Positions 8,538 to 49,344 of a stretch of 64,000 bases of DNA are shown piece by piece. This stretch comes from Bdellovibrio sp. GT3. GTDB lineage: Bacteria > Bdellovibrionota > Bdellovibrionia > Bdellovibrionales > Bdellovibrionaceae. Below the pieces are notes generated by a model. It ran no database searches. It had not been told where the DNA came from and saw only the letters and a program-made list of their open reading frames with translations. The position numbers and the translations under genes were made by a program. Each line of letters opens with the position of its first letter. Within the stretch, counting starts at the first letter, position 1. The stretch is taken from contig NZ_JBBNAD010000004.1 of NCBI RefSeq assembly GCF_037996765.1, positions 744,001 through 808,000 of the forward strand, in the 5' to 3' direction.

Positions 8538-9316
8538 TTTATCTGGGTCTGTTAGTTTTCGCTCTGGTGGTTTTTCTTTTGATCAAACATCGGTTTTGGA
8601 AAGCAGACCCCTGGCCGGCAAACGCCATCAAGCCTCCGCCGTTTCAAGGTCACCGCGGCTATTGGCAGGCGGGCGCCCAGGAAAACACTCTGGCCGCCTT
8701 TAAGGCCGCCAAAGACCGCGGTCTTGAGATGGTTGAAATGGACGTGCGCTTAAGCAAGGACGGGCACGTCGTGGTTTTTCATGATGATGACCTAAAGCGA
8801 ATATCAGGCGATTCGCGCCGCGTGGATCAGGTCTCAGCCGCAGAGCTAGAACAAATTGCAAATATCCCGACACTTCGTGAAGTGCTGTTAAGTTCCGGCG
8901 TGCCAAAGTATTTAAACATTGAGCTTAAAACCAATAAAGCCACCGATCACCGGTTGGAAGAAAAAGTCGCCCGCGTCGTGCGCGAGACAGACTCGTTTCA
9001 CAGAATTCTATTTTCCAGTTTTAATCCCCTGGCCGTGCGTGAGTTGCATCGCCTGCTTCCGCAAGTGCCGCGGGCGTTACTTGCTACTAAAGAGCAAGAT
9101 CCGACCAATCGTTGGTATTTAAAGATGCTCTTATTCGCACCCTACATTCACGCCAGCATTCTGCATCTGGATCATCGCTATGTCTCTGTGGCGGATCTTC
9201 GCCGTTATGTAAAGCGGGGAGTGCCAGTTAGTTTTTGGACCGTGAATGAACAAGCCCGGGCCGAAGAGTTGCTCGCCAACGGCGCCCAAAGCATTATCTC
9301 GGATTGCCTGAGGTAA
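8534..9316 (+). CDS. Glycerophosphodiester phosphodiesterase
   Basis: 260 residues with an N-terminal transmembrane anchor (about 2-18) and a GDPD TIM barrel. Active-site features: GHRGYWQAGAQENTLAAF near residue 40, then VEMDVRLSKDGHVVVFHDDDL with the metal-binding Glu and Asp and the second catalytic His. It hydrolyses glycerophosphodiesters from phospholipid turnover to glycerol-3-phosphate and alcohol. ATGA overlap with the AsmA-like gene makes an operon. The stop codon lies inside the first of two copies of an 11-mer that opens the downstream repeat. Confidence 0.92.
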   Translation: MIYLGLLVFALVVFLLIKHRFWKADPWPANAIKPPPFQGHRGYWQAGAQENTLAAFKAAKDRGLEMVEMDVRLSKDGHVVVFHDDDLKRISGDSRRVDQVSAAELEQIANIPTLREVLLSSGVPKYLNIELKTNKATDHRLEEKVARVVRETDSFHRILFSSFNPLAVRELHRLLPQVPRALLATKEQDPTNRWYLKMLLFAPYIHASILHLDHRYVSVADLRRYVKRGVPVSFWTVNEQARAEELLANGAQSIISDCLR

Positions 9317-9321
9317 CTGCG

Positions 9322-9377
9322 CCTGAGGTAACAGGGTTCCCTTTTCGTACTGCGATGCGGAACCGATATCGGTTCCG
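9322..9377. repeat. Dispersed palindromic repeat, copy A
   Basis: 56-bp element: CCTGAGGTAAC, a TTCCCTTTTCGTACTGCGAT core, then the palindrome CGGAACCGATATCGGTTCCG. It is nearly identical to copy B at 9907-9960 in the same orientation, and partial copies occur near 18777 and 19588. The opening 11-mer also occurs at 9307-9317, across the stop codon of the GDPD gene. Confidence 0.85.
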
Positions 9378-9398
9378 TTGCGGGTGTGAAAATTTCAG

Positions 9399-9869
9399 TT
9401 ATTTGATTGTCTCTGGAAAGATCTTTTCGAATTCTTCAAAAACAATGGGCATTGATTCTTCAAAGTTGAGATCGAGAGTTTCAAATTGTCTTTTATAATA
9501 TTCAGCATGAACCCTCCGCCAATAATCAAGGGTTCGATCTCCTTCCCCTTCGCGATAGGCCTGAGATTCGGTGATTTCATTAAAGGGAATAATGGAAACT
9601 CTGGTTGTTTTGACAATACAAACAGCCTCACCATTGCCGTCGACAACCAGAAAAATACCGCCGACTTCAGGCAATTGAGTACCTGTTTTTTCAAATGCCC
9701 AAAGGGCCGGAACCGTTGCGCGCTTGATGCCTTGGTTCACTAATGCAGACAGTTCGGTTGCTTCCATCTTGTTGTCAGAAAATGAGTCGGCGACAATCTC
9801 GGGGATCGGAATTCCCGATGCCACATGATAGTCTCGCCACATTTTTATGACCGAATTTGAATGCACCAT
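9399..9869 (-). CDS. ASCH-domain protein
   Basis: 156 residues from the ATG at 9869; the open frame continues to 9995 only by reading through repeat copy B, so the longer version is unlikely. The core (WAFEKTGTQLPEVGG, VVDGNGEAVCIVKTTRV, PFNEITESQAYREGEGD, DYWRRVHAEYYK) matches ASCH proteins of the YhfF type, a PUA-related fold proposed to bind RNA or modified nucleosides. It lies between two direct repeat copies, with GNAT genes upstream on the same strand. The RBS is weak. Confidence 0.75.
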   Translation of the reverse strand: MVHSNSVIKMWRDYHVASGIPIPEIVADSFSDNKMEATELSALVNQGIKRATVPALWAFEKTGTQLPEVGGIFLVVDGNGEAVCIVKTTRVSIIPFNEITESQAYREGEGDRTLDYWRRVHAEYYKRQFETLDLNFEESMPIVFEEFEKIFPETIK

Positions 9870-9906
9870 AAGTTTTTCTATTTCAAATTGGCAGAGATGT
9901 CCATAC

Positions 9907-9960
9907 CCTGAGGTAACAGTTCCTTTTTCGTACTGCGATGCGGAACCGATATCGGTTCCG
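9907..9960. repeat. Dispersed palindromic repeat, copy B
   Basis: 54-bp near-identical direct copy of the element at 9322-9377, differing by a short indel near the TTCC tract and a base in the T-run. It ends in the same CGGAACCGATATCGGTTCCG palindrome. Copies A and B bracket the ASCH gene. Confidence 0.85.
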
Positions 9961-10005
9961 CATGATGTCAGGCGGGGAGTTTGCGTAACTCTCAAAGGCT
10001 TTTAT

Positions 10006-10467
10006 TCAGAGCGGAAGTTCAAGAGTATACTGTCTGCGTTCGGGATTGAAATCCGTTTCCCTGAATCCCAGCGAAGCATAAAGTTTCCGCGCAATAGCGT
10101 TGTCATGATAAACGCACAGTCTCATTTTATCGACGGGCCGTTGTTTCATAAGCTCAATTCCGCTGACCAAGGTCTTACGCCCAAGTCCCTTGGATCTAAA
10201 CTCAGCTTCAATGAAGAAGTCATAGATGAAAGCTTCTTGTTTCTTTGGTTGAATCTGAATCCAAATAAAACCGACAGGTGAGTCCTCAGAATGAATCACG
10301 TACCAGAGATCATTTTCGGAAGGGCGATTTGGTGGGTCACCGAATTTCGCTCTTAAATCCTCGATGCTTTGTCCTGACAACTTGGCAGTATCGTTCAAGA
10401 ACTTCTCGAATGAAAACTTGCTGTAGTGGTTCAATTGATCTGCTGTCATGGGTTCAAGGCGAATCAT
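10006..10467 (-). CDS. GNAT-family N-acetyltransferase
   Basis: 153 residues. The acetyl-CoA binding motif A is visible as FFIEAEFRSKGLGRKTLVSG, with the RxxGxG/A pattern, and motif B as LYASLGFRETDF. The N-terminal half (LEPMTADQLNHYSKFSFEKFL) is typical of small stand-alone GNATs. The substrate is not predictable. Followed upstream on the same strand by two more GNAT genes. Confidence 0.88.
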   Translation of the reverse strand: MIRLEPMTADQLNHYSKFSFEKFLNDTAKLSGQSIEDLRAKFGDPPNRPSENDLWYVIHSEDSPVGFIWIQIQPKKQEAFIYDFFIEAEFRSKGLGRKTLVSGIELMKQRPVDKMRLCVYHDNAIARKLYASLGFRETDFNPERRQYTLELPL

Positions 10468-10483
10468 GGGGTAAAGCTATCCA

Positions 10484-10999
10484 TTAAAGCGTGATCCAAT
10501 ATCGGCGGATCATTTCATTATCTTCATCGTTCCAAACTCTATCTTCAAGTTTGCCACCGAATCGCTCGATAACCTTCCATGATGGAGTGTTTGAATCTGA
10601 GCAGGTAACCATAATCGATTGAAGCCCCAATGATTTGCAGTAGTCCAACGCCTGTCGGGCCATATCAGTTGCATAACCTTTATTTCGAAATTTCTCGGCA
10701 ACTGAGTAGCCTATGTGACCGCCGCGATGGCGAAGACGTTCATTAAGTTCGTGGCGAACACTGACTCGTCCGATGATTTTCCCGTCCATAAACCCATAAA
10801 GCATGGTATGCGGAACTCGGTCGGGTGCTATATCAATACCCGCTTTTTCTTTTTTTAGAATTTCAAGCATTTGTGAGAAGCTCATTCCGTCTCGCCAAGC
10901 AAATGTATACCAGCTAAGCTCGTCAACTTTCCACTCTTTCATTCCTTCGAAAAAAGCTTTCTCATCCAACATAGTCAGTTGTCTTAGTTCAACCGTCAT
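10484..10999 (-). CDS. GNAT-family N-acetyltransferase (RimJ-like)
   Basis: 171 residues. HIGYSVAEKFRNKGYATDMA carries the (R/Q)xxGxG/A loop of GNAT motif A, and NTPSWKVIERFGGKLED is the typical motif B of RimJ-like acetyltransferases. It ends 16 bp before the GNAT gene at 10467 begins, so they may be co-transcribed. Substrate unknown. Confidence 0.88.
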   Translation of the reverse strand: MTVELRQLTMLDEKAFFEGMKEWKVDELSWYTFAWRDGMSFSQMLEILKKEKAGIDIAPDRVPHTMLYGFMDGKIIGRVSVRHELNERLRHRGGHIGYSVAEKFRNKGYATDMARQALDYCKSLGLQSIMVTCSDSNTPSWKVIERFGGKLEDRVWNDEDNEMIRRYWITL

Positions 11000-11050
11000 G
11001 ATTTTTAGTCAGTGCTTTCTGATGCTATGATTGTCCAAGTTATAAGGGGT

Positions 11051-11494
11051 TTATTCAGGCAAAAGACTCATCGAAAAATGCGTTTCGGATTCGCCATCAA
11101 TTTTAAACCCCAAGGCTTCATATAAACATTTTGCGCGGGTATTAATTTTAAAGACTCCAAGCTTTAGCGGAACACCCTTAGCACCATATTTTACAATAAG
11201 ATCCTTGATGATCGCCGATCCTAGTTTACGATTTTGGAACTCTGGAAGGATCAAAATGTTAACGATAAAAAGAGTGCCATTTTCCTCATTTAGCTGCAGG
11301 TAGCCTACTAATTGATTAAAAGCTCGAAGCAATTGAATCTGTCCGGATTCAAAATCTTCCTTGAAAAATGCGTCCTGCCTTGTCTCTTCCCAACCCCATA
11401 TTTTTTCGACATGCGGTTTTAAAGTAATGTGATGTACATTCTTCAGAAATTCATAGTCAGTGAGATTTGGTTTAACGATTTCATACAAAGACAT
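11051..11494 (-). CDS. GNAT-family N-acetyltransferase
   Basis: 147 residues. VNILILPEFQNRKLGSAIIKDLI is motif A with QNRKLG in the pyrophosphate-binding loop, and CLYEALGFKIDGE is motif B. Third of three consecutive GNAT genes on this strand; the three share little sequence, so they are not a recent tandem duplication. Substrate unknown. Confidence 0.87.
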   Translation of the reverse strand: MSLYEIVKPNLTDYEFLKNVHHITLKPHVEKIWGWEETRQDAFFKEDFESGQIQLLRAFNQLVGYLQLNEENGTLFIVNILILPEFQNRKLGSAIIKDLIVKYGAKGVPLKLGVFKINTRAKCLYEALGFKIDGESETHFSMSLLPE

Positions 11495-11656
11495 AATTTA
11501 AGTTTATCCATAAGACGGAGGGTGGTCATTAAACAAATAGTTCAAAGTCATTCAGTGGCTAAAAACTCAGAGTCAAGGTGGTCAAAGGCGTTAGCAGAGC
11601 ATTCACTCCGTCGCGCTGCCGCACCCGTAGCGGGTGTGGAAATGAGGTTCGTGCAA

Positions 11657-36317: not shown

Positions 36318-37364
36318 ATGTTTTGGATTTTAATACCTTTGCTCTTTAAGAGCCTTTTTGTATTGGCGCAACCCACCTACAATACGGGAGCCTTCTGGCG
36401 CGCCATCGATACGGCGAACCCCACTTGCACAATTTCATCAGCACTTTCTGGTTGGCGCAGTTTTTCAGCGGAGACCATTAACTTCAACTGTACCGATGAT
36501 TATCGTGTTGCCAAAGCCGAGTGTCGCCTTAATGGAGGCGCTTGGGCTAATTGCACATCTTTGACTTCTTATACTTCTCCGACCTTGGCGAATGATACAA
36601 CCTACACCTTTGAAGTGCGAGCTACAGATTATTTCGGCAAACTGTCGTCAGTGGGGGCAGGGCAAACTCGTACCTGGTCCGTGGATTTAGGAACGCCATC
36701 AGTCAGTATTACCAGTTGGACGGGAACCAATACGGGATCATCCCGGGTTTACTTTTCAGGCACCGACAATGAAAGCGGCGTCGCGAGCTATCAATGTTCC
36801 ATTGATACGGGCACAGCATCTTGGGCGGCATGTTCTGGTTCTTACCTTGAGGCCACTGGTAGCGCCGGTGTGACATATTATTTTCGCGTGATCGTCACTG
36901 ATAACGTAGGTCGGGTCAGTGGACAAGTGACCACCAGTTGGCGCAATGGCAATTGGGGTGGCTGGAGTGGCTGTTCGGTTTCCTGTGGCGGGGGATCCAT
37001 GACTCGCGCTTGTAACAATCCTTCTCCGTCAGGAAGTCCTCCGGGGATGGGCTGTAGTGGTATTTCCTCGCAGGCATGCAATACCCATTCTTGTTGTACG
37101 GCTGCCAATAACACTTCGAACATGTGTCCTGGAAATTACTATACGCTGCAAGCTTACAACAACTCGAACCCTTCTTGCCCAACGCCTTATACGCAGCCAG
37201 CAGACGGCACCGGTGCTGCAAAAGTTGATTCAGATCCGGCAGTACCAGCGGGTGGAGTTGTTTCTTGTGCCAGCGGTTCCATATCTCGCTCCAATTTGCA
37301 GTCTTCTGAGGTCTGTGCTAAAGAGTGCACAACTTGGTATACTGCAACGTGCAGATGTAATTAG
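36318..37364 (+). CDS. Secreted protein with Ig-like repeats and a thrombospondin type-1 repeat
   Basis: 348 residues. Signal peptide MFWILIPLLFKSLFVLA. Two related beta-sandwich-type segments (about 33-122 and 126-208: CTISSALSGWRSF..., VSITSWTGTNTGSS...). Then a thrombospondin type-1 repeat at 213-259: WGGWSGCSVSCGGG, Arg230, and six cysteines (219, 223, 232, 246, 254, 259) in canonical spacing. A Cys-rich tail follows. TSRs in animals and apicomplexan parasites act in adhesion. First gene of a plus-strand series; next gene starts 8 bp on. Confidence 0.85.
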   Translation: MFWILIPLLFKSLFVLAQPTYNTGAFWRAIDTANPTCTISSALSGWRSFSAETINFNCTDDYRVAKAECRLNGGAWANCTSLTSYTSPTLANDTTYTFEVRATDYFGKLSSVGAGQTRTWSVDLGTPSVSITSWTGTNTGSSRVYFSGTDNESGVASYQCSIDTGTASWAACSGSYLEATGSAGVTYYFRVIVTDNVGRVSGQVTTSWRNGNWGGWSGCSVSCGGGSMTRACNNPSPSGSPPGMGCSGISSQACNTHSCCTAANNTSNMCPGNYYTLQAYNNSNPSCPTPYTQPADGTGAAKVDSDPAVPAGGVVSCASGSISRSNLQSSEVCAKECTTWYTATCRCN

Positions 37365-37371
37365 GTGGATT

Positions 37372-37983
37372 ATGTACGAAGCGGTAGAGGTTACCTTCAG
37401 TTATGCTGGAAATCGCGATTACCTGGATATCACCCAGATTACGGGTGTGATTTGGGATGCGCTTTTTCAGAAATATCAGATTCAAAAAATTCAACAGGTG
37501 CACTTTAAACTTGTCAGTCCGTTGTTTCGGCAAGGGCGTTTGGAGGAGATTGATCCCTTGTTAGCGCCGAAAGATGCTGCTGTGACTTTACGTTTTATCG
37601 ACGATGAAAATAGACAACGGCATTTTGTCGTCTATGCAGATCGCACACCGATTGTCGCGCGTTTTCCTGAGGAATTCAATGAGGACGACCATTTTCAAAT
37701 TTCCAAGGATTCTGTCAGATACAACGGCGGATACCACCATTCCAATCGATTGGTATATTTAATTACCAAAATGTGTCGTGCCCATGTTGTTCGCTATCTG
37801 CAAGCAGTCAGGCCTCAGGCCGTGCAGTTTTTTATTCCCACATACGATTTAAAAAAAGATCCCGTTGAAGAATTCATTTTTGAAATTCGCCCCAATGGAA
37901 GACCACGCAATGGATTCCAGCGCTATAATTTTACTCGCGACGGACAGGACTACGGCTATGGATACGCGAGGTTCCAGACGTGA
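37372..37983 (+). CDS. Conserved-looking protein of unknown function
   Basis: 203 residues from the ATG at 37372, which has AGGTGG upstream; the frame is open further upstream inside the previous gene. No signal peptide. Soluble, rich in aromatic residues and Arg, with the tail RPRNGFQRYNFTRDGQDYGYGYARF. No family recognised. Overlaps the next gene by 4 bp. Confidence 0.7.
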   Translation: MYEAVEVTFSYAGNRDYLDITQITGVIWDALFQKYQIQKIQQVHFKLVSPLFRQGRLEEIDPLLAPKDAAVTLRFIDDENRQRHFVVYADRTPIVARFPEEFNEDDHFQISKDSVRYNGGYHHSNRLVYLITKMCRAHVVRYLQAVRPQAVQFFIPTYDLKKDPVEEFIFEIRPNGRPRNGFQRYNFTRDGQDYGYGYARFQT

Positions 37984-38426
37984 TCAGGTCTCAGGGACGT
38001 GTCATCTTTTGGCTTTTACTGATAGCAGGTCTTTGGCGAATTGCCTTGCAGTTTGTTTTGCCCCAAGTGGAATCCAGGCGGGTGGCAGTGGGGCCGTTTG
38101 CCCATGCATTTATTGGTGATGGTCATTTTCAGAAAATTCACTGTGAGGTACAAACACCCCGCGGAATGGAAGTCGTGTCCTTGGAAGAACTCAACAATAA
38201 TCGTTCCCTGTTGTTGAGTGAAATTACCATGCGGAGCTATTGGGCCGCGGTCGAGGGATTTATTTTACCTCCTGAGCGACAGCGTATCCTTAAGAAAATG
38301 TTTTGCGATGAAAACATCGCGTCTCGACTAAAGTTACCGGAAGGAATTCAAAAAGTTTCCCTGTGGAAGGAAGCCCGCAGTCTATTTCCAGAAAGGTTAG
38401 AGCAAATTGAAATACAGTGCCTCTAA
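37980..38426 (+). CDS. Membrane-anchored protein of unknown function
   Basis: 148 residues from a GTG at 37980 (GTGA overlap with the preceding stop). One N-terminal membrane segment, VIFWLLLIAGLWRIALQFVL, then an extracytoplasmic part with three cysteines. No known domain. Its 3' end overlaps the next gene by 20 bp, so the block is translated as a unit. Confidence 0.65.
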   Translation: MIRSQGRVIFWLLLIAGLWRIALQFVLPQVESRRVAVGPFAHAFIGDGHFQKIHCEVQTPRGMEVVSLEELNNNRSLLLSEITMRSYWAAVEGFILPPERQRILKKMFCDENIASRLKLPEGIQKVSLWKEARSLFPERLEQIEIQCL

Positions 38427-39159
38427 TATCTTTCTAACCGGGAAGTGTTTTTTAAGTTTTGCGCTGCTATGGGATTTTAGCAGGGTGTTGGCGGATCATG
38501 CCAACTGGGTGCTATGGAACCACCCAACTGTGTCTTTGCTTTGTGCAATGATGGTAGTCTTGGGCAGTGTCGCATTCTTATCGGAATCGCAGCGAAGAGT
38601 GATGGGGCTTCTTTGTTTTCTGGGCTTTATAGTTTTTTATTTTCTAAATCCGGCGTCGATCTCTGTGGCGACGGGAATGGTGGGCTGGTTACTACTTTGG
38701 ATCGTCGCTCAACCCCTAAATGCCAAGTGGGATGATTCTTCATGGAAGTTTCACCCGTGGTCTCAAGAGATTCTTTGGATTGTGATGGGTATCACCTACG
38801 CTGATGGCGGAGTGGCAAAACTGCTTCAACCACTATGGTACCAGGGACAGGCATTAGAGACGATTGCCCAAGTGGGACCTTCTATGGTGCCGGGGTTTGG
38901 CAGAAAGATTTTGGCGGAAAGCAGTCTGGTCGCAAAAGTGGCGACTTGGTCTGCGATAGCTGTGCAGTGTGGGGCGGTTTTGCCTATTTTTTGGAAACGA
39001 AGTCGGGTTTTTTTCTGGTGGGCGCTAACATTGATGCATCTATCAATTGCCGGGCTGTTTGTGTTGCAAGTGTTACCGGTTTACATGCTGGCCTGCCAGG
39101 CGTTGATGTTTGATTATAAATTTCTTCCTGAATTGAAAGCAAAGAGAGTTTTGGCGTGA
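38407..39159 (+). CDS. HTTM-like multi-pass membrane protein
   Basis: 250 residues from a TTG at 38407 (AGGTTAG upstream). Six or so hydrophobic segments. The stretch YADGGVAKLLQPLWYQGQAL resembles the W..G.A region of HTTM proteins (vitamin K-dependent gamma-carboxylase-like), and a later segment (WWALTLMHLSIAGLFVLQV) carries a membrane histidine. The match is by eye and weak; DoxX-like proteins are an alternative. GTGA overlap with the next gene. Confidence 0.55.
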   Translation: MKYSASNIFLTGKCFLSFALLWDFSRVLADHANWVLWNHPTVSLLCAMMVVLGSVAFLSESQRRVMGLLCFLGFIVFYFLNPASISVATGMVGWLLLWIVAQPLNAKWDDSSWKFHPWSQEILWIVMGITYADGGVAKLLQPLWYQGQALETIAQVGPSMVPGFGRKILAESSLVAKVATWSAIAVQCGAVLPIFWKRSRVFFWWALTLMHLSIAGLFVLQVLPVYMLACQALMFDYKFLPELKAKRVLA

Positions 39160-40637
39160 AAAGTATAATTTTGGTTTTATCGAGCGTTTTGCTATTGAGC
39201 TCTTGTTCCTGGTTTCACAGAACCAAGATGATTTCAATTGGTATTGCGAACCTTCCTGAAACGCTGGACCCGGTTCAATATAGCATTAATCCTGAAGCCA
39301 GTATTGTCAGACTATTGCATCGGGCGCTTTTCACCTTCGCAATGGATCCCAAAACCGGGGAGTATCGTATTGAATCTGCTGTCGCGGAGCTGCCGGTGAT
39401 TCAGGGGAAAAAGATTTCAATCAAAGTTAAGGATGGCGCAAAATTTAATTTCCTGTCCGGTGATCAAAAAATCGTCAGGGATATTGATTCCGAAGATATT
39501 GCTGCAACAATTTTGCGGGTTGCCGACCCTGATTCGCATTCTGTTGTGAACCAGGACTTGGACGGCATTGTGGGGCTTCAGGAATGGAAAAAGCTTTCTC
39601 CGGAAAATCGTCGTACTAAATATCCAACAGGTATTTCTTTTCCGGATAAAAAGACTGTGCAAGTGGAATTAAGAAATCCAAATCCATTTTGGCATCAGAA
39701 TCTGGTGAAAACACAATTTCTGATTCTTCCTAAAGAGGCTTATCAAAATAAAGAATTCACCTCCTGGCAAAAAGGCACAGGGGAATTTCACATCCTCACT
39801 CAGGATGCAATATCTTTGACGATTGTGAAAGATGGCCAAAATTTGAAGCTTTTGTTTATGGGTAAGTTGTCTAATTCTCAGCAGCTTTTTGATGCCGATA
39901 AAATCAGTGTCTTGTTTGTTCCTGATGGTGTTCGTCTGGGGGATTTCAAGTTTTCCGTTTTCACCAAAGAACTTGAACGGCAGAAGGGTGTATTGCTGGT
40001 CGGTCCCGCTTTAAACCTGGGATACTTAAGACTGTCTTCACAATGGATGAAGAAAAATCCTGATGGTAAACTGCGCGTTTCACAGGGCTTGCGTCGTGAT
40101 GAGATTGTCAGTGCATTACTTCCGATGACCGGAAAACCGATGCTGGAAATCGTACCCGGAATCACCGCACCTTCCGCTGCTGAAAAGACGGTTACAAATG
40201 GTAAGCCATTGAACCTGCGCTTGGGCTTGCCGGATATTAGTGAATCACGGTCGTTTGCTGATGCCATCACGGGGCAGTTGTCGCGTCACGGAATCACTGT
40301 GCAAACTCAGTTTTTGCAACCTGAGATTATGGAAAAGGAATTTTCACTTGGACGGTTTGATTTGATTTCCCAGTATTGGGTGATGGATGCACCGGACTGG
40401 ACGGGCTTTATGAATTTCCTGGCTGACGGATCGACAGGTGTGACTACCAAGTGGAATCAAGCCGTTTCCAAGGGGTCTTTGCCAGAAGCTTTGCAATCCA
40501 TGAATAGTTCTCTGCAAACAAACTCGGGATGGATCCCCTTGGTTTCTTCAGGCCGCATGGTGATTCACAAAAAAAATATTCAGGGGCTCCGCTTTGATGG
40601 GTTGTTTGTGGACTTCAGTCAGGCACGAATTGAATAG
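39156..40637 (+). CDS. Substrate-binding-like lipoprotein (SBP_bac_5)
   Basis: 493 residues from a GTG at 39156. Signal peptide with lipobox LLSSC (Cys17). SBP family 5 features: MISIGIANLPETLDPVQYSINP, IVRLLHRALFTF, a body of typical length, and FDLISQYWVMDAPDWTGFMNFL near the C-terminus. Unlike oppA at 15196 there are no permease or ATPase genes beside it. It may act in an envelope process rather than uptake. The next gene starts directly after the stop. Confidence 0.8.
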   Translation: MKSIILVLSSVLLLSSCSWFHRTKMISIGIANLPETLDPVQYSINPEASIVRLLHRALFTFAMDPKTGEYRIESAVAELPVIQGKKISIKVKDGAKFNFLSGDQKIVRDIDSEDIAATILRVADPDSHSVVNQDLDGIVGLQEWKKLSPENRRTKYPTGISFPDKKTVQVELRNPNPFWHQNLVKTQFLILPKEAYQNKEFTSWQKGTGEFHILTQDAISLTIVKDGQNLKLLFMGKLSNSQQLFDADKISVLFVPDGVRLGDFKFSVFTKELERQKGVLLVGPALNLGYLRLSSQWMKKNPDGKLRVSQGLRRDEIVSALLPMTGKPMLEIVPGITAPSAAEKTVTNGKPLNLRLGLPDISESRSFADAITGQLSRHGITVQTQFLQPEIMEKEFSLGRFDLISQYWVMDAPDWTGFMNFLADGSTGVTTKWNQAVSKGSLPEALQSMNSSLQTNSGWIPLVSSGRMVIHKKNIQGLRFDGLFVDFSQARIE

Positions 40638-41576
40638 ATGATGAAGTGGATCTTAAGTATTCTTATTCTGATTTTCTTGGTGGTCGCTGGCGACCAGGTA
40701 TTGTTGCGTTGGTTGAAACAGGAAAGCCTGGATAAAGCCATCGTCGACTATCAGAATCTTTTGCTGGATTCTGAAAAGTCAGATGTTTCAGGAGTTATTT
40801 ATAAAAGACAAATGATTCTGGCCAAGAATGGCCTGACCAATCAGTTTCGGGAAAACTCTTCGAAAGAACCGGGCGAATACCGGATTTTATTTATGGGTGG
40901 TTGGCCCGTTTTGGGGTTGGGACTAAAACCCTGGGAGGGCTTGGCAGAAAGTTCGGCTTTCACATTAAACCAGTCCTTGTCGCAAGTTTCTTCAAAGTAT
41001 CCACTTAAAAAGATAACGATCTTAAGTGTTGCTCGTGGAGGCGTTTCTTTACAGGCACAGGTTGCAGCCTTTGAAAAGCTGCAAGGCGATTTTCAGTTTG
41101 ATCAAGTGGTGTTTGTGCTGTCACCGGACCTGTTGATTAAACAAAATATCCCCCAGCAAAAAATCGAATTAAATCAGACCAGCGGTCTTCTGATGACTTG
41201 GCAATTGATGAACCTGAATCGCCAACAGATTTTAGTCCCCATACAAACCACGGCCGAGTTATTTACCGATCAAAACATAAAAGTTTTACGCGATACCTTG
41301 GCGCAGTTTAAGGGCGAAATCGGGCCACGACTTCAAGTGGATTCTGTGGTGCTGATCGCGCCCATATTCGGAGTAACAGCGAGTTTGGAAGATGCCATGC
41401 AAAGGGCCTTCGTTCGCAGTGCTGATGAGGCAGGCTATCTGACCGGGGCATTGTCGCTAAAAGGCGTTGTAACCCCAAGCTATGATAAAAATATTTTACT
41501 ACCGACGATTTCAGCATCACACACTTTTGCTGAGCAAATTAAAAACTACATCATTCGAAGAGGGATTCGTCAGTGA
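40638..41576 (+). CDS. SGNH-hydrolase-like protein with degenerate active site
   Basis: 312 residues. N-terminal membrane anchor (WILSILILIFLVVAGDQVLL). The layout fits membrane-anchored SGNH-fold acetyltransferases of the AlgX/AlgJ/DltD kind: block I position RILFMGGWPVLGLGLKPWEG (GDS replaced by GGW), block II ILSVARGGVSLQAQVAAFEK, and QVVFVLSPDLL. The missing Ser suggests loss of the usual chemistry. Assignment by pattern only. Overlaps the next gene by 4 bp. Confidence 0.5.
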   Translation: MMKWILSILILIFLVVAGDQVLLRWLKQESLDKAIVDYQNLLLDSEKSDVSGVIYKRQMILAKNGLTNQFRENSSKEPGEYRILFMGGWPVLGLGLKPWEGLAESSAFTLNQSLSQVSSKYPLKKITILSVARGGVSLQAQVAAFEKLQGDFQFDQVVFVLSPDLLIKQNIPQQKIELNQTSGLLMTWQLMNLNRQQILVPIQTTAELFTDQNIKVLRDTLAQFKGEIGPRLQVDSVVLIAPIFGVTASLEDAMQRAFVRSADEAGYLTGALSLKGVVTPSYDKNILLPTISASHTFAEQIKNYIIRRGIRQ

Positions 41577-42172
41577 ATAAGTTTAAAGAGTATATTCCAA
41601 AAAAGCAGTGGATGATGGGGTTGATTTTTTTGGGCGGAATGCCGAATCAGCCGCAGTCGCATTTTTCTTCAAGTCCCATGGCGGCGTTAAGTATTCCGGG
41701 GCCTTTGACGGCGCAACCGGTTTTCTCCAGCAAGACTGCGGAAATTTACCTGTCACGAATGAATCTTGCGCAAAAGCTGTTTTCCGTAGCTTCCGCCGTT
41801 CCTTCAGGGGTGGATGCTGAAATCACACCGTCCCTATATCGCTGCATGACTCAGCAGACGCGGGAATTGGGTATGATGATCGAACTTGATCCCAAAAAGC
41901 TTTTACCACGTAGAATCTTTATGACCTTTGTGGAAACCTTTGACGAGGCCGGTGCTGCGAACTGCATCTCGATGACCAATCGAATTGATAAAAATGCCAT
42001 TCAGTTTTTGGTTTGCTTTGATCACTCCCGCATGAACAGCTGTCGTGCATTGACTGTGGAAGACTTCAAAAAAGAACTTAAAAATGTTGAGACCCAGACT
42101 GCGGAACGTGAAAGCGCCCATGGCGAATTTGTGAAAGCCATGGATACGCTGCTAAATAAGGTTTCAAACTGA
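41573..42172 (+). CDS. Protein of unknown function
   Basis: 199 residues with a weakly hydrophobic N-terminus (WMMGLIFLGGM) that could be an export signal. Contains four cysteines (LYRCMTQ, ANCISM, LVCFDH, NSCRAL), which points to export. No known family. The 3' end overlaps a convergent small membrane-protein gene by 9 bp; its start overlaps the upstream gene by 4 bp. Confidence 0.6.
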   Translation: MNKFKEYIPKKQWMMGLIFLGGMPNQPQSHFSSSPMAALSIPGPLTAQPVFSSKTAEIYLSRMNLAQKLFSVASAVPSGVDAEITPSLYRCMTQQTRELGMMIELDPKKLLPRRIFMTFVETFDEAGAANCISMTNRIDKNAIQFLVCFDHSRMNSCRALTVEDFKKELKNVETQTAERESAHGEFVKAMDTLLNKVSN

Positions 42173-42587: not shown

Positions 42588-44324
42588 ATGAATTTTAAAT
42601 GGAAAGAAAGTTTGAAGGGACCACTGATCGCCATTGCCATTTTGGGGGTGGGTTTCTTTTTATTTAAGCACAGACTGACGATCCAAACTGCCAATGCCCG
42701 GGATGACGTTCCTTTAAAGGCCCTTGATAACTCCTGGGCCCAAGGGTGGCATCCGCAAAAAGCCCAAGTTGATTGGAAGGTAAAGCACGTTGCTGCCTAC
42801 TTAAGCTCTGGCGGAACTTCCGTCGCCGTTGCCGACGTGAATGGGGATGGTTACCTGGATCTTCATTTTACGGATCCGGGCGGGGATCCGGCGGGTAAGC
42901 TGTATCTAAACAATCAAGGTAAAGGGTTTACCTTGAATAACGAACGCATTCATTTATTACCGGAAAAGTCCGTGATCAACAGATCTGCATTGTTGGATTT
43001 GGATGATGACGGTCATTTGGATTTGTTTTTACTGGGATTCTGCCCACGTATTGCCTGGGGTGAATCCAATGAAGGCTTTAAAGAATCTGAAACTCAACCA
43101 TTGGGATGCGGTACATTTGGAACTGGCTTTAATTTAGCGGATCTGGATGGCGACGGGCAGTTGGAAATTCTAATTGCCCCTTATGTGGATTTGGATTTCT
43201 TTGGTGATCTGCAAGACACTAATGTCATGCCCACAAACTTCAGTCATGCGATGAATGGAACAAAGCCTTCGGTGTTTCGCCGATCTGGACGTTCTTTTCA
43301 GCGCATTGAGACTCCGATACAACATCGGGGATGGGCGCATTCCGTGGCCGTATGGAAAATGCCAGACTCCAAAGACACCCTTCTTTGGTTTGCCAACGAC
43401 TACGGGATCGATAGAACTTATTTTGTCGGTCCTCAAGGAGTGATGAAGGAAGTTTCTGATTCTATGATCACCGATGCTTTCAGTCGCAACGGCATGAATT
43501 CAGAAATCGTGGATATGGATGGGAATGGGCGTCCTTCTGTTTATGTCAGTCAAATTTATCTGGGGGCGCAAAAGCTTGCGGGCAATATGTTTTGGCGCTG
43601 GTCCGGGGGCCACGAATTCGTAAATAAAGCATCCGAGATGGGAATTCATCGTTGTGGCTGGTCTTGGGGCGCAAAATTTTTTGATTTGGAAAATGATGGG
43701 GATCTGGACCTGTTTGTCGGGAATGGTTTCTTTGCCGGAGAAGTCCCAGGTAAATCCTACTGGTATTTTTTAAACGTGATGGATGCAGCTGATAAGCACG
43801 TATTGAGTGATGCCCTTCGCTGGCCCGCGATCGGCGGTGGTGCACTTTCCGGAGAAGAAAGAGCCTGTCTTTTCGTTAAAGACCATGGTCAGTATAAAAA
43901 CCGCAGTCAGGACGTGAAAGACTTAGCCGACTTTACCGCCAATGAGCGCGGTGTCGCCCTGGTGGATCTGGATAATTCCGGCAGACAAGCCTTAGCAACA
44001 ATCAGTTGGGAGCAAGGCCCCCGCATCTATCGCTGGGAAGGTGCCTTCGGATCCTGGATAGGCTTTGATCTTCATCAAGCCGCCCCCAACAGAGACGCCT
44101 GGGGAGCGTCAGTCATTTTGAAACTGGCTGATGGCAGAACCTTGGGACGACAAAAACAGCCCTTAAATGCTTACGCTGCCCAATCGGACGCGCGCTTGCA
44201 CTTTGGTTTAGGAGCAGGTGAGTTCCCTGAAGGGGTAACAGCTTTGATAACCTGGCCGGATGGAACTCAAATGGAACTTAAAAACCTTAAAGTGGGTGAA
44301 TATCATTCGGTGGTGAAGCCATGA
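42588..44324 (+). CDS. FG-GAP/ASPIC-UnbV (CRTAC1-like) exported protein
   Basis: 578 residues. N-terminal membrane anchor/signal (GPLIAIAILGVGFFLFK). Calcium-loop repeats of FG-GAP/VCBS type recur: VADVNGDGYLDLHF, LLDLDDDGHLDLFLLG, LADLDGDGQLEILI, FFDLENDGDLDLFVG, LVDLDNSGRQAL. The C-terminus matches the ASPIC/UnbV domain (AWGASVILKLADGRT, HFGLGAGEFPEGVTALITWPDGT). This is the architecture of cartilage acidic protein-like CRTAC1. Likely a calcium-bound beta-propeller at the surface. ATGA overlap with the RnfD-like gene. Confidence 0.85.
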   Translation: MNFKWKESLKGPLIAIAILGVGFFLFKHRLTIQTANARDDVPLKALDNSWAQGWHPQKAQVDWKVKHVAAYLSSGGTSVAVADVNGDGYLDLHFTDPGGDPAGKLYLNNQGKGFTLNNERIHLLPEKSVINRSALLDLDDDGHLDLFLLGFCPRIAWGESNEGFKESETQPLGCGTFGTGFNLADLDGDGQLEILIAPYVDLDFFGDLQDTNVMPTNFSHAMNGTKPSVFRRSGRSFQRIETPIQHRGWAHSVAVWKMPDSKDTLLWFANDYGIDRTYFVGPQGVMKEVSDSMITDAFSRNGMNSEIVDMDGNGRPSVYVSQIYLGAQKLAGNMFWRWSGGHEFVNKASEMGIHRCGWSWGAKFFDLENDGDLDLFVGNGFFAGEVPGKSYWYFLNVMDAADKHVLSDALRWPAIGGGALSGEERACLFVKDHGQYKNRSQDVKDLADFTANERGVALVDLDNSGRQALATISWEQGPRIYRWEGAFGSWIGFDLHQAAPNRDAWGASVILKLADGRTLGRQKQPLNAYAAQSDARLHFGLGAGEFPEGVTALITWPDGTQMELKNLKVGEYHSVVKP

Positions 44325-45112
44325 AATGGTTTAATCTAAAAGACCCGCGTCTTCCTATTTTGATTTTTCTTCTAAGCTTTGTTGTCTATGCTTTGCAATC
44401 TCCAGGGTTTGTCAGAACGCCGTGGCAGTTTGTGGGATCCTTGGTGACTTCTTTGGCTGTTGATTATGCATTGATTCGCTTTTACAAGAAGGCGAACTTC
44501 TTTCCCTTAAGCGGATTGATATCTTCATTGGGTTTCTTTTTACTTTTGGACAGTCCCTACGTGTGGCCATATATCGTTGGTGCCGCCTTGATGAATATCT
44601 CCAAACATTTTTTTACCGCTTATGGCCGCCATATTTTTAATCCGAATAATTTCGGTCTGGTTGTGATGGTGTTTTGTTTCCCAATGGCTGCGACCACGAC
44701 GGCGGGTCGCTGGGGTGGGGGGACAGAGCTTGCGTTCATACTCATAGCTTTGGGTTTTTTTGCCGCCTATCGCGCGCAGCGCTGGGTGTTGTCAGTGACG
44801 TATATCTCGGTATTTTTTCTAGGCGCTTTACTGCGGGCTCATCTGCTAAAATTAAGTCTGGCACCACTTCTGGCTCCCATGACCGGCGCGGCGTTTATTT
44901 TGATTTCTTTCTATATGATGACGGACCCTGCGACCTCGCCAAAAAGCAAGAAAATGCAGGTTCTACAGGGAGTGTTTATTGCTTCTCTGGATACTTATCT
45001 GCGCATGCAGCAGTTTAAATACGCACCTTTTGTGACGGTGTTTGTGGCTTGTGCTCTGTATTCAAGTCTGCGCTTTTTAGATCAACCAAGACGGGAACTT
45101 GCAAAGCCGTGA
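44321..45112 (+). CDS. RnfD/NqrB-like membrane protein
   Basis: 263 residues with eight or so membrane segments. Family-like motifs: AYGRHIFNPNNFGL (close to the HIFNPSNF region of NqrB/RnfD) and ISFYMMTDPATSP near the C-terminal end. I do not see a clear flavinylation S/T-G-A-T motif. No other Rnf subunit is nearby, so electron transfer through a full Rnf complex is unlikely. Such stand-alone proteins often sit next to CRTAC1-like genes, as here (from memory). GTGA overlap with the desaturase gene. Confidence 0.72.
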   Translation: MKWFNLKDPRLPILIFLLSFVVYALQSPGFVRTPWQFVGSLVTSLAVDYALIRFYKKANFFPLSGLISSLGFFLLLDSPYVWPYIVGAALMNISKHFFTAYGRHIFNPNNFGLVVMVFCFPMAATTTAGRWGGGTELAFILIALGFFAAYRAQRWVLSVTYISVFFLGALLRAHLLKLSLAPLLAPMTGAAFILISFYMMTDPATSPKSKKMQVLQGVFIASLDTYLRMQQFKYAPFVTVFVACALYSSLRFLDQPRRELAKP

Positions 45113-45849
45113 AGAAGATCATCGTCCGCTTTCTTCATCCGGCTGTGTTTTTAGTTCTATTATCGATGGGAAAAATCGAAATAGAACTTTGGCCGTGGAC
45201 TTTGCTGGCATTTTTCTTGTTCTATGTAGTGGGTCTTGAAATAGGAATGCATCGCTACTATTCCCATCGAAGTTTTGAAATGGCGCCTTGGAAGCTCGCT
45301 GTGATTACTGTTTTAGCTTTGGGCGCAGGGACGGGAAGTCCCATGGTTTGGGCGGGCCGCCATCGCAAGCACCATGATAAGTCGGATACTTCCGAAGATC
45401 CCCATTCCCCCGAGCATCTTGGGTTTTTCAGAGTTCTGACCTTGACGGTCTTTGGAACTAAAATTGAAGGTCGTTACGTTCGGGACTTTGTTAAGGATTC
45501 CCGCCAGCAGTTCCTGCATCGCTATTACACGGAGATCTTGGTTGTATCCGTGGTGTTGTGGGCGATTCTGGCCCCGGTCAGTTGTGCCATGCTGTACTGT
45601 CTGCCGGTAGAGCTGGCACGTCTTGCATCGGGTGCCATCAATGCGTTTGCCCACTCGCCTAAGTGGGGATCGGTGTTTTATGATCGCAGCGATCGCAGTC
45701 GCAACTTAAGTGGAGCGATAGGAAATGCCTTCGGAATCGGGCTGCATCACAATCATCACGAAAGACCCCAAAGTTATCGTCAGAATCATCGTGAAGGTGA
45801 GTACGATCTGAGTGGCTGGATTATCGAAAGATTTTTAAAATCCAAATAG
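45109..45849 (+). CDS. Acyl-CoA/fatty-acid desaturase (type 1)
   Basis: 246 residues from a GTG at 45109. All three histidine boxes are present: HRYYSH (48-53), HRKHH (85-89) and HHNHHE (213-218), plus NAFAHSP, so the di-iron site is intact. Four membrane segments are expected. It introduces a cis double bond in a fatty acyl chain using O2. The last gene of the plus-strand series; its stop overlaps the convergent MBOAT-like gene by 15 bp. Company with envelope genes suggests a dedicated lipid substrate. Confidence 0.9.
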   Translation: MKKIIVRFLHPAVFLVLLSMGKIEIELWPWTLLAFFLFYVVGLEIGMHRYYSHRSFEMAPWKLAVITVLALGAGTGSPMVWAGRHRKHHDKSDTSEDPHSPEHLGFFRVLTLTVFGTKIEGRYVRDFVKDSRQQFLHRYYTEILVVSVVLWAILAPVSCAMLYCLPVELARLASGAINAFAHSPKWGSVFYDRSDRSRNLSGAIGNAFGIGLHHNHHERPQSYRQNHREGEYDLSGWIIERFLKSK

Positions 45850-47127
45850 ATAAGCAAAATATTCCAGCGGAGACGCTGTGGCGCCGGTGTTGTGCAGGGT
45901 CAAAAATCCATACATCAACACGGGAGTTAAAAACAAACTTGCCACGAATATTCTTAAAATCCCCAAAATTCGGGGCACGGAATTTTTCTTGGATGGTCTA
46001 AGGAAAAGCATCGTCAAAGAGAAAGAAACCACCAGGCATAGGTAGACAGAGCGATTTGCCACAACATGGTAAAGACTTGTTCCCGGAATGGTCACATCAC
46101 GATTGATGATATACATCAGCCCAAACAACGGCACACTGAAAGAGATGGCGCAGGCGGTTCGCAGCTTACGATGTTTGATGAAGGAAAAACTTTTGATCAA
46201 AGGTCGATAAAGCAGAATTAAAATCAACCGATTTAAGTAATGCATGATTTTGGACCAGCTTTCGGCAAGCTTTGCATCTGTAAATACCATGGCCCCTAAA
46301 GGCAGATGATATCCACTTAACCGGGCAAAGCCCACGGCCGTATTGGCGATTCCTGCGGTCTTAATAAACATCCAATAAAGTTTTGCGATCAATGAAGCCC
46401 AGCGCATGGGAACGGACATTTCGGCATGAATAAATTCAGTCATTTTAATTGGAAACTTCATGATGGGAAGATGTTCTGTCATGTCGGCAATCCAAAGACA
46501 CAGAATGCCACTGGCCAAGATCAATAATGACTTTCGGGTGGTGCTGTCATTTTCAGGAAGGTCCGAGTAGACCGAATTCAGCTCCTGCGATCCGGCTCCG
46601 ATGGGAAGGCCTCCGAATAGTTTTACATTCCAGGCTGGACTGGAAAGAACACTTTCGGTGAAAATATTTTTTGTGGCAGGAAATATCGATATCCATAAAA
46701 AAGGCCAAAGCAACCATTGCAGATTCACAGCGATGGGGATGGCATTGTTACGGAACAAATAGATGACTGATTCAAATAGCGCAAAGATAAATAGAACGCG
46801 CCATAGAGGTTGGCGAATTATTTGTCTTGCCACCCATAAGATGGCCGTCGCGATAAGCAGGGAAGCCGCATAATACCCAATGGTAAAAACCGTTTCAAAC
46901 TGGGCAGGGGTTTGCATTAAAGCGGCGGGGGCCGCAAGGTAAAAACAAGAATGCCCAAAGGAGGCAATCAGCAAACTTGCGAATTGTTTTTCCCGCCAGA
47001 AGAAATAAGAAAAAATCGGAATTAAAATCCACGGTGAACTAAGGGCCGAGCCGGGCCATTTGATGAATATGATAATCCACAGGCTAAGTGTAATTAGAAA
47101 GAATAAAATTCGGCGGCCAAGGCTCAT
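45835..47127 (-). CDS. Divergent MBOAT-like multi-pass membrane protein
   Basis: 430 residues with ten or more membrane segments. The central stretch GFARLSGYHLPLGAMVFTDAKLAESWSKIMHYLNRLILILLYRPL (about 266-310) parallels the MBOAT core, where a GxARLLGF...P motif precedes a FW-x-x-WH segment; here WSKIMH has its His at 296. Overall the family similarity is weak. MBOATs with an SGNH partner O-acetylate polysaccharides or peptidoglycan. Last gene of the minus-strand fibre series, 7 bp after the fibre gene. Confidence 0.5.
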   Translation of the reverse strand: MSLGRRILFFLITLSLWIIIFIKWPGSALSSPWILIPIFSYFFWREKQFASLLIASFGHSCFYLAAPAALMQTPAQFETVFTIGYYAASLLIATAILWVARQIIRQPLWRVLFIFALFESVIYLFRNNAIPIAVNLQWLLWPFLWISIFPATKNIFTESVLSSPAWNVKLFGGLPIGAGSQELNSVYSDLPENDSTTRKSLLILASGILCLWIADMTEHLPIMKFPIKMTEFIHAEMSVPMRWASLIAKLYWMFIKTAGIANTAVGFARLSGYHLPLGAMVFTDAKLAESWSKIMHYLNRLILILLYRPLIKSFSFIKHRKLRTACAISFSVPLFGLMYIINRDVTIPGTSLYHVVANRSVYLCLVVSFSLTMLFLRPSKKNSVPRILGILRIFVASLFLTPVLMYGFLTLHNTGATASPLEYFAYLFGF

Positions 47128-47134
47128 GCCTTAA

Positions 47135-49012
47135 TTAGTAACCCGTTATCCAGGTCACGTAAACTTTATTTCCTGCGCGCAGCAGGGTGAAAACAGTTTC
47201 GCCATTTGTGTTTTGCAATGTCGGTACGAACTTAAAGTCACCAGCAGCCAATGCCGTCGGTGAGGCTTGGGAGAAACTGCACATTGCTGGAGTGGTGCCA
47301 CGCACTATTAAAGTATAAGAACCACCGTCATACATATTGGAAAAGCTGAAGCTTCCACAGTTGGCCGTGGTGTACTGCAGATTTCCATTGTTCCAGTCAA
47401 TCGTGGTTGCAGCACCCGCATTGTAAACCTTGGATAGGACTTGTCCTTGCACTTCGATGGTAGCGTTAGTGGTCGAAGTTGTGTTGGCGATCATTCGGTC
47501 TGCGACCACGTTGCCTGTAGCTGTGATGTTGCCAGAAGCAGTAACGTTACCGCCACTGACGGCCAATTGATTGGTTCCAACAGTTAAACCATTTGCCGGC
47601 AAATTCAAAGTCCCAGTCATGGTGTCACCAGCTTTATTTACTGGCGTATAACCCAAACCTGTTGTCACGTCAGAGCTTGAAAGGTTGACGTTACCTACCA
47701 CGCGACCTTTGCTGTCGACAGTTACTTTTGCATAGGAACCAGCAGTCACTGTGTCAGGAAGACTGACCACGCCGGCCGCGACGGAAAGGCCCGCGCCGAC
47801 TTGCAATACACCTTGCACTGTTGTTGATCCCACCGGGAAATCCGTGCAGGCAAAAGCGTCGGTAGTCGAAGACCAAGATAGATACTGATTCGCAAGGCAG
47901 CTTGTCGTGGGCCATGGGCTGAGTGCTGTGTTATTTATTAGATCCGTATAGCGAAGCTTCGTAATTTCCCAGGTCGTGGTTGAGTTATTCCAACGCAAAC
48001 CCTGGCCTGTGATAGTGCCGGAGCCAATGGCGATATTCGGAGTGTTGTAAGTTCCGTACTTCACCAGAGGAGAGATTGCAGTCAATCCCACCATAACATT
48101 GTCTGATAGAACAGAATCCAGAATACGACCGCCCGAATCCAACTGCACCAGATTTCCCGGAGCAGTACCAGCATCCAGTGTCGCCGAGTTGCCCAACCCT
48201 AAGTTGTCGCGGGCATCTGCGGGGCTTGCGATATCCGAAAGATTGCTGTTTGGATCCAGCGGGATCAAAGTAAATGCTTCCCAGGAAGCTCCAGTCCAAC
48301 GGTATGTTTGGTTCGCGCTGAGTGTTGGCAGCGGTGCTTCGTTCAATTGATTTGGCTTTTCGTAGCGATCATAGGTGCCGGCTAGCAAATGCAGGAACTT
48401 ATTGTAATCATCACTATCCATTTCATTGGTGGTCACATCAGGAGAAAAACGCAAAAGCTGTCGGGGCTCGTAACCGCCGACTTGCATGGATTCAACGGTG
48501 TAAGGAACATAAGACAGGTTTTGATATTCAAGGGTCTGCACACCCATACCGTCGTTGAAGGAAATAACTAGCCTACGATTTCCACCAGGTGTTGGAGTGA
48601 ATGTTTTTGAAGAAATGATGGATACATGTGTGACCGGGTCGATCTCCTCACAAAATGGAAATGGCCCCAGGACTGCCGGGCGATTGGAGAAAATTTCTGA
48701 AAACGCCACGCCACCGTCGATGCCGGGATCTGATCTAACACCAGAGCCGATATCGATGTTGAACACACCCTTGGAGTTGACCATGTTCAGAGTGTGCATC
48801 TCTTCGTAAAGCAGACAGTTTTCAATACCGGAGGAACGAATTTGCACTTTCAACATTACGCTGGGTGAATTCACGGGCTTGCCATCAGGTCGGATGATGC
48901 GACCCTGATAGCTCATGCTGTTTACTCCAGCAAATGCTGAAGGAGTTCCTGCGATCAACGCAGAAAATAAAAGTGCAAGCCTCCAAAGAAAGTTCATGAC
49001 TCGAGCTTTCAT
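47135..49012 (-). CDS. Fibre-like adhesin (mosaic adhesive trimer-like)
   Basis: 625 residues. Signal peptide (FLWRLALLFSALIAGTPSAFA), then an N-terminal domain with SYQGRIIRPDGKPVNSPSVM, then phage tail-fibre-style sequence: DNLGLGNSATLDAGT, GDTMTGTLNLPANGL, GNITATGNVVADRM. A C-terminal domain of about 80 residues ends in NKVYVTWITGY. This resembles the fibre-like mosaic adhesive trimer (MAT) proteins reported in Bdellovibrio, likely homotrimeric and used in prey recognition. ATG at 49012; overlaps the upstream lipoprotein gene by 4 bp. Confidence 0.75.
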   Translation of the reverse strand: MKARVMNFLWRLALLFSALIAGTPSAFAGVNSMSYQGRIIRPDGKPVNSPSVMLKVQIRSSGIENCLLYEEMHTLNMVNSKGVFNIDIGSGVRSDPGIDGGVAFSEIFSNRPAVLGPFPFCEEIDPVTHVSIISSKTFTPTPGGNRRLVISFNDGMGVQTLEYQNLSYVPYTVESMQVGGYEPRQLLRFSPDVTTNEMDSDDYNKFLHLLAGTYDRYEKPNQLNEAPLPTLSANQTYRWTGASWEAFTLIPLDPNSNLSDIASPADARDNLGLGNSATLDAGTAPGNLVQLDSGGRILDSVLSDNVMVGLTAISPLVKYGTYNTPNIAIGSGTITGQGLRWNNSTTTWEITKLRYTDLINNTALSPWPTTSCLANQYLSWSSTTDAFACTDFPVGSTTVQGVLQVGAGLSVAAGVVSLPDTVTAGSYAKVTVDSKGRVVGNVNLSSSDVTTGLGYTPVNKAGDTMTGTLNLPANGLTVGTNQLAVSGGNVTASGNITATGNVVADRMIANTTSTTNATIEVQGQVLSKVYNAGAATTIDWNNGNLQYTTANCGSFSFSNMYDGGSYTLIVRGTTPAMCSFSQASPTALAAGDFKFVPTLQNTNGETVFTLLRAGNKVYVTWITGY

Positions 49013-49344
49013 GGTGTCGCCGCCGGCAAAGAGTGGGAGGTGTGGAAATCCAATACGAACTGATCTTCAAATAAAGTTCCTTGAAAGCTGGTCATGACCG
49101 TATAGCCGGAAACTGTACGTGTTGCGATACGATCGTTAAGCATGCTGATGGAAACCTGACCGGTGTATCCGTCTTCTGTAATGACATTTTGATTGCTTAA
49201 AGGGGTCATGCCCAAGGCTGTTGGGAAGCGACTGTTGTCACCACGAATAGTCACGTCCATTGAGCATCCTGTCAGTGTGGATGCCAAAAGAAGTGCTATG
49301 AAAAGTGTCTCAAACAAAGACGTTCCAGTTGTTTCCATTTTCAT
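49009..49344 (-). CDS. Small lipoprotein, partner of the fibre gene
   Basis: 111 residues. The lipobox TLTGC (Cys27) follows a hydrophobic stretch (LFIALLLASTL), so it is a lipoprotein anchored in the envelope. The mature part (MDVTIRGDNSRFPTALGM...) has no recognised domain. Its stop overlaps the fibre gene start, which suggests co-expression and perhaps a role in anchoring the fibre (inference). Confidence 0.7.
   Translation of the reverse strand: MKMETTGTSLFETLFIALLLASTLTGCSMDVTIRGDNSRFPTALGMTPLSNQNVITEDGYTGQVSISMLNDRIATRTVSGYTVMTSFQGTLFEDQFVLDFHTSHSLPAATP

Follow-up and report, generated by a model that had tools for sequence, protein, structure and literature searches.

A compact thrombospondin type-1 repeat in a probably exported Ig-like protein of Bdellovibrio sp. 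GT3

The thrombospondin type-1 repeat (TSR) is the textbook adhesion module of animals and of malaria-type (apicomplexan) parasites, and Bdellovibrio is noted for members that prey on other bacteria. The open reading frame at 36318-37364 of the stretch of Bdellovibrio sp. GT3 DNA analysed here (64,000 nucleotides, hereafter the window) brings the two together, and it raises the question of whether its product carries a genuine TSR and what such a module might do in this organism. Within the open-access full text of PMC, the scope of our literature search (subscription literature lying outside it), no relevant paper linked thrombospondin repeats with Bdellovibrio.

The gene, its product and the identity of the repeat

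The open reading frame begins with the ATG at 36318, ends with the stop codon at 37362-37364 of the forward strand and encodes 348 amino acids, its position being the one given in a preliminary description of this DNA, and inspection of the reading frame found no in-frame start between the preceding stop and that ATG. It is a real gene, since its only plausible start is followed by a signal peptide, another genome of its genus (G022) encodes a full-length relative of 46% identity, and the next gene begins after a gap of 7 nt. Two antisense open reading frames, 36878-37123 and 36916-37221, were rejected as genes, being mechanical and devoid of any support. The GC content of the gene is 0.505 and that of its TSR 0.567, against 0.467 for the window; this shift is mild and may stem from the Gly/Cys/Ser/Pro-rich sequence, and we therefore set aside the idea of a recent foreign gene. 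Phage origin was likewise rejected, as the protein has no PHROG match.

The hydrophobic N-terminus (MFWILIPLLFKSLFVLAQ, 36318-36371) with its Ala-x cleavage-like site reads as a probable Sec signal peptide, which makes export through Sec probable; no lipobox was found in this N-terminus upon reading the sequence. There follow two FnIII/Ig-like beta-sandwiches, at residues ~35-122 (36420-36683) and ~123-209 (36684-36944), both modelled by AF2 with pLDDT of about 95 and both having FnIII tandems as their nearest structures, while the first also gave a weak Pfam Big_7 match (0.003). The TSR had been described as following beta-sandwich repeats, and the AF2 model together with the fold matches agrees with this placement. 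Behind the TSR (residues 212-259, 36951-37094) lies a Cys-rich C-terminal region of 89 residues (260-348, 37095-37361) with eight cysteines, for which AF2 gave no confident model. It is present in 3/144 genomes of the class, always after a TSR and always in one genus. The Ig-like domains, in turn, are related to the repeats of very large proteins found throughout the class. In the source genome itself, a 2146-aa open frame contains repeats related to them (contig 3, 41755-43593) and probably encodes a giant surface protein.

Residues 213-259 hold the motif W213xxW216SxC219SxxC223GGG, R230 and cysteines at 219, 223, 232, 246, 254 and 259, a combination that is, as a sequence pattern, well beyond chance. 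Against a curated Pfam cut-off of 21.6 bits for TSP_1 (PF00090), a 60-aa segment scored 26.7 bits (E=6e-6) and the protein scored 25.7 bits in a whole-genome scan, whereas the whole 348-aa protein searched alone fell just under the cut-off at 21.0 bits (E=4e-4); its G022 relative scored 23.2 bits. A phmmer search of PDB with the full protein returned thrombospondin-1 at 2.1e-9, followed by properdin and ADAMTS13, and a profile built from 42 prokaryotic TSRs, all of them TSP_1-matching, recovered thrombospondin-1 at 2e-42. A fold search with the full-length model gave FnIII-type domains, and the TSR was examined with a separate domain model, which has three strands and a mean pLDDT of 76. With that model, Foldseek found thrombospondin-1 as the best match (E 6.7e-4) and VIA found semaphorin-5A (Z 4.6, rmsd 2.8 A over 56 residues), both with only TSR-bearing chains among the matches listed; the scores are modest, as expected of a 60-residue domain. 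These sequence and model comparisons firmly identify residues 212-259 as a genuine TSR and a member of TSP_1. The claim of a TSR in a bacterial secreted protein thus stands on Pfam, PDB sequence and predicted-fold comparisons, the HMMER search and the comparison of predicted domain structure with known TSRs both having been proposed as checks in the preliminary description.

A compact form of the repeat

The same description had called the spacing of this TSR canonical, which holds for the WxxW motif, the Arg and the order of the six cysteines, but not for the internal gaps or the number of tryptophans. Its cysteine gaps are 3-8-13-7-4 versus 3-10-11-9-4 in the thrombospondin-1 (TSP-1) repeat, and its strands B and C each have two residues fewer than those of TSP-1. 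In the alignment, the strand before the first cysteine carries two Trp in WxxW register rather than three, one Trp step fewer, and W213, W216 and R230 are kept in the sequence as a reduced Trp-Arg ladder. We compared 66 prokaryotic TSRs whose cysteines are complete: of the 16 with 8 as their C2-C3 gap, 14 have 7 as their C4-C5 gap, and in all 47 where the former gap is 10 the latter is at least 9. Half of the TSRs with 8/7 gaps (7/14) come from one contig, the pattern occurring on seven contigs overall: two of the same genus, one of G189 (same phylum), one each of Yanofsky- and Moranbacteria, and two unclassified bins. These lengths are most simply explained if the Trp-Arg ladder has lost one layer and the paired strands B and C have become shorter in concert, as the TSR fold predicts. 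What is new here rests on the compact strand lengths and the Ig-Ig-TSR-Cys-rich architecture, as the TSR itself belongs to TSP_1.

The repeat contains a single Arg, and Lys, Asp and Glu are all absent from it. Heparin-binding TSRs usually have a polybasic binding groove, and with a single Arg and no Lys a glycosaminoglycan/heparin-type mode of binding is accordingly disfavoured. As for modification, its CSVSCGGG matches the consensus for O-fucosylation and its WGGW that for C-mannosylation. No Dpy19 C-mannosyltransferase was detected in the source genome, and O-FucT gave zero matches anywhere, control genomes included, in a search that lacked a positive control. Full-length Dpy19 homologues (up to 303 bits) are encoded by G109 (L077) and G112 (L076), and a partial one by G111 (L078); none of these three genomes has a TSP_1 match, and a link between TSRs and Dpy19 was rejected, as the two genomes with full-length Dpy19 are without one. 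The window repeat is a natural compact TSR that appears to fold with an incomplete Trp/Arg ladder, in a genome where no C-mannosyltransferase was detected.

Carriers, neighbours and a proposed function

The G022 genome is the sole other genome among the 144 of the class to encode a full-length relative, and the protein is therefore not a core predation factor. The TSR itself has a wider distribution. TSP_1 was matched in 24/144 genomes of the class and in 40/369 of the phylum, about a tenth, compared with 0/14 well-known control genomes, while a scan of the collection for TSRs added Patescibacteria, Omnitrophota, Myxococcales, Bacilli and a Woesearchaeote. The earlier statement that TSRs are mainly eukaryotic consequently understates the prokaryotes, given the 40 phylum genomes and several other phyla, and the sequence matches indicate that the module is sparse but established among them. 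Surveying Bdellovibrionota for homologues and their neighbourhoods, as had been suggested, further revealed that gene context around the relatives differs.

The TSR carriers of the phylum are diverse and mostly exported, comprising prepilins, lipoproteins with a MIDAS motif, fibre-like proteins, Ig-like stalks and others. Ig-like repeats followed by a TSR, for example, recur in the G022 relative and in G073 (L035). Prepilin-type N-termini with C-terminal TSRs occur in L063 (6944-8731 -, 9560-11041 +, 12430-14034 -), L064 (6497-8122), L065, L093 and L101, i.e., in Bdellovibrionia as well as in Omnitrophota (L101) and Bacilli (L093); N_methyl was matched in L064, and four further proteins were recognised by motif. 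From their sequences, these are candidate pilus-tip adhesins. Fibre-like proteins with one or three TSRs at their end are encoded at L069 (3370-4167, -), which has a tail-fibre PHROG match at 7.5e-8, and at L117 (4907-5791, +), where the match is marginal only. About ten class genomes encode TSR lipoproteins with a MIDAS motif (L072:6759-8633, L012, L017, L018, L020, L021, L022, L023, L028 and L073). In these lipoproteins, one to four TSRs are followed by a conserved domain with a DxSxS MIDAS-like motif, which in the form DDSxSM is invariant in eight aligned; a VWA domain was matched by neither Pfam nor PDB sequence search, so that its assignment is based solely on the MIDAS motif.

The TSRs of the phylum sit where binding tips are expected, i.e., behind prepilin N-termini, on MIDAS lipoproteins and at fibre ends, and their presence on several kinds of surface protein suggests that the module is probably a recognition or attachment tip. 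The preliminary description had inferred a role in prey or surface attachment, which these recurrent surface architectures make plausible. On the model of these carriers, and of the proteins through which Bdellovibrio is known to interact with prey, we propose a role in recognition or attachment for the window protein as well, namely that of a secreted stalk presenting the TSR and a Cys-rich tip to a surface or to prey, a reading that we regard as evenly poised between right and wrong. Following its presumed export through Sec, the two FnIII/Ig-like domains would form a short rod outside the cytoplasm, as predicted by their models, and this rod would bear a disulfide-bonded compact TSR, a domain assigned by homology whose cysteines would be expected to pair 1-5, 2-6 and 3-4, together with the Cys-rich C-terminus as its business end. 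The rod would hold the TSR and the C-terminal tip off the membrane, where they might bind a ligand exposed by prey, by a substratum or by the envelope of the cell itself. Contact of the TSR with a neutral glycan or a protein through its exposed Trp/Ser/Gly faces seems more plausible than through a polybasic groove, binding of the latter kind being unlikely for a domain of such composition.

The surroundings of the gene argue in part against attachment. On the forward strand it is followed by six co-directional genes, encoding a 203-aa protein (37372-37983) found within the class only in the source genome, a 148-aa protein with an N-terminal membrane segment (37980-38426), an HTTM-like membrane protein (38407-39159; 21.3 bits, below the cut-off of 27.7), a solute-binding lipoprotein-like protein of the SBP_bac_5 family (39156-40637; 7.6e-10), a membrane-anchored protein of 312 aa (40638-41576) and a 199-aa protein that completes the series (41573-42172). 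After the first gap of 7 nt, all of them overlap by 4-20 nt or abut, so the TSR gene does head a long overlapping series, as originally described. Farther downstream of this operon, 42588-45849 (+) encodes an FG-GAP/ASPIC-UnbV protein, an NQR2/RnfD-like protein and a fatty-acid desaturase.

The series looks like one of envelope and transport genes, not an adhesion system, and since neither an anchor nor an outer-membrane export route is visible in its sequence, the protein may stay periplasmic. The main rival explanation is accordingly that it is a periplasmic or envelope component acting with its operon, in which the TSR mediates assembly with partners (the HTTM-like membrane protein, the solute-binding lipoprotein and two or three membrane proteins) rather than attachment to other cells. 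The tight spacing of the seven co-directional genes agrees with such a role, as does an SBP_bac_5 lipoprotein encoded two genes away from the G022 relative and weakly similar to that of the window. However, SBP_bac_5 is a common family whose presence near both relatives may be due to chance, the 203-aa neighbour is confined, within the class, to the source genome and the context in G023 is different, all of which leads us to consider this explanation rather unlikely. The downstream operon was not found around the G022 or G023 relatives, and with the 203-aa neighbour being unique to the source genome we rejected gene context as a guide to function. At L061:8506-16803, the G022 relative adjoins an AMP-ligase/ketoacyl-synthase cluster, and a membrane protein of the same locus (10176-11642) is weakly similar to the product of 45835-47127 of the window.

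The context in G023 raises another explanation, in which the protein assists a chimeric fibre system and, once secreted, caps tail-fibre-like (MAT-like) adhesins, chaperones them or serves as their tip subunit. In that genome (L062), a fibre-like gene (8070-8840) is overlapped at its end by a gene for a TSR and the C-terminal domain (8809-10227), in G018 (L068) a TSR lipoprotein gene lies beside a fibre-like gene, and the window contains a related fibre-like gene at 47135-49012 (-). The latter is about 10 kb from the TSR gene and on the opposite strand, however, and the 18 kb surrounding the G022 relative showed no fibre-like gene; such fibres are also numerous in Bdellovibrio, and adjacency may therefore be fortuitous. 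We consider an accessory role of this kind improbable. The window fibre-like gene, which is related to those beside TSR genes in G018 and G023, is itself adjacent to a small lipoprotein-like gene (49009-49344, -).

Finally, the sparse distribution of the protein and its unique Cys-rich C-terminus would both be compatible with a rapidly turning-over secreted protein of non-adhesive function, such as a toxin, an inhibitor or a self-recognition factor, for which the TSR serves as a stable disulfide scaffold. Yet neither the neighbours nor the family matches pointed to toxins or immunity proteins, apart from a sub-threshold Imm65 match in a neighbouring gene (15.3 bits versus a cut-off of 25), and this explanation appears more doubtful still. 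A stalk presenting the TSR for recognition or attachment remains our preferred reading of the window protein. More broadly, Bdellovibrionota, predatory and related, could use TSRs as exchangeable tips on prepilins, MIDAS lipoproteins, fibres and Ig-like stalks, with the TSR of the window being a compact version from which one Trp-Arg layer has been removed, although we offer this generalization tentatively and consider it less probable than not.

Comparison with known systems

The closest known counterparts of the window TSR are TSR2/TSR3 of human thrombospondin-1 (PDB 1LSL, 3R6B and 7YYK), with which it shares WxxWSxCSxxCGxG, the fold, 43-45% identity in structural alignment and six cysteines in the same order with equal first and last gaps. 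It differs from them in its strands B/C, each shorter by two residues, in having two Trp and one Arg in place of a longer ladder and in being nearly uncharged, and also in that no enzyme for fucosylation or C-mannosylation was found in the source genome (the fucosylation search being the one without a positive control). The TSRs of Patescibacteria, Omnitrophota, Myxococcales and Bacilli (L087-L103) likewise match TSP_1, several with the compact 8/7 cysteine spacing, but their carriers are other than the window protein and include prepilin-type and multi-TSR proteins.

Within Bdellovibrio, two kinds of prey-interaction protein invite comparison. With the MAT chimeric fibres (PMC10769870), the window protein would share secretion and an interchangeable C-terminal binding module, yet it lacks both fibre repeats and a match to tail-fibre families. 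The MIDAS adhesin Bd0875, a surface lipoprotein involved in prey interaction (PMC11003981), resembles the window protein in that both are exported proteins of this genus with a candidate module for adhesion, whereas the window protein has neither a MIDAS domain nor a lipobox.

The apicomplexan adhesins TRAP and MIC2 resemble the window protein in having an extracellular TSR of similar predicted fold in a group that invades other cells, and differ from it in possessing a VWA domain, a transmembrane anchor and a motor-binding tail. The combination of a MIDAS motif with TSRs belongs to other genomes of the class, in lipoproteins whose layout resembles the VWA and TSR arrangement of TRAP/MIC2 (their VWA not being matched in Pfam/PDB). 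Should TSRs indeed be exchangeable tips in this phylum, they would be a bacterial counterpart of the TSR/VWA adhesins with which apicomplexan parasites invade, and their repeated occurrence on exported surface-type proteins of a predator-containing phylum suggests a testable attachment toolkit.
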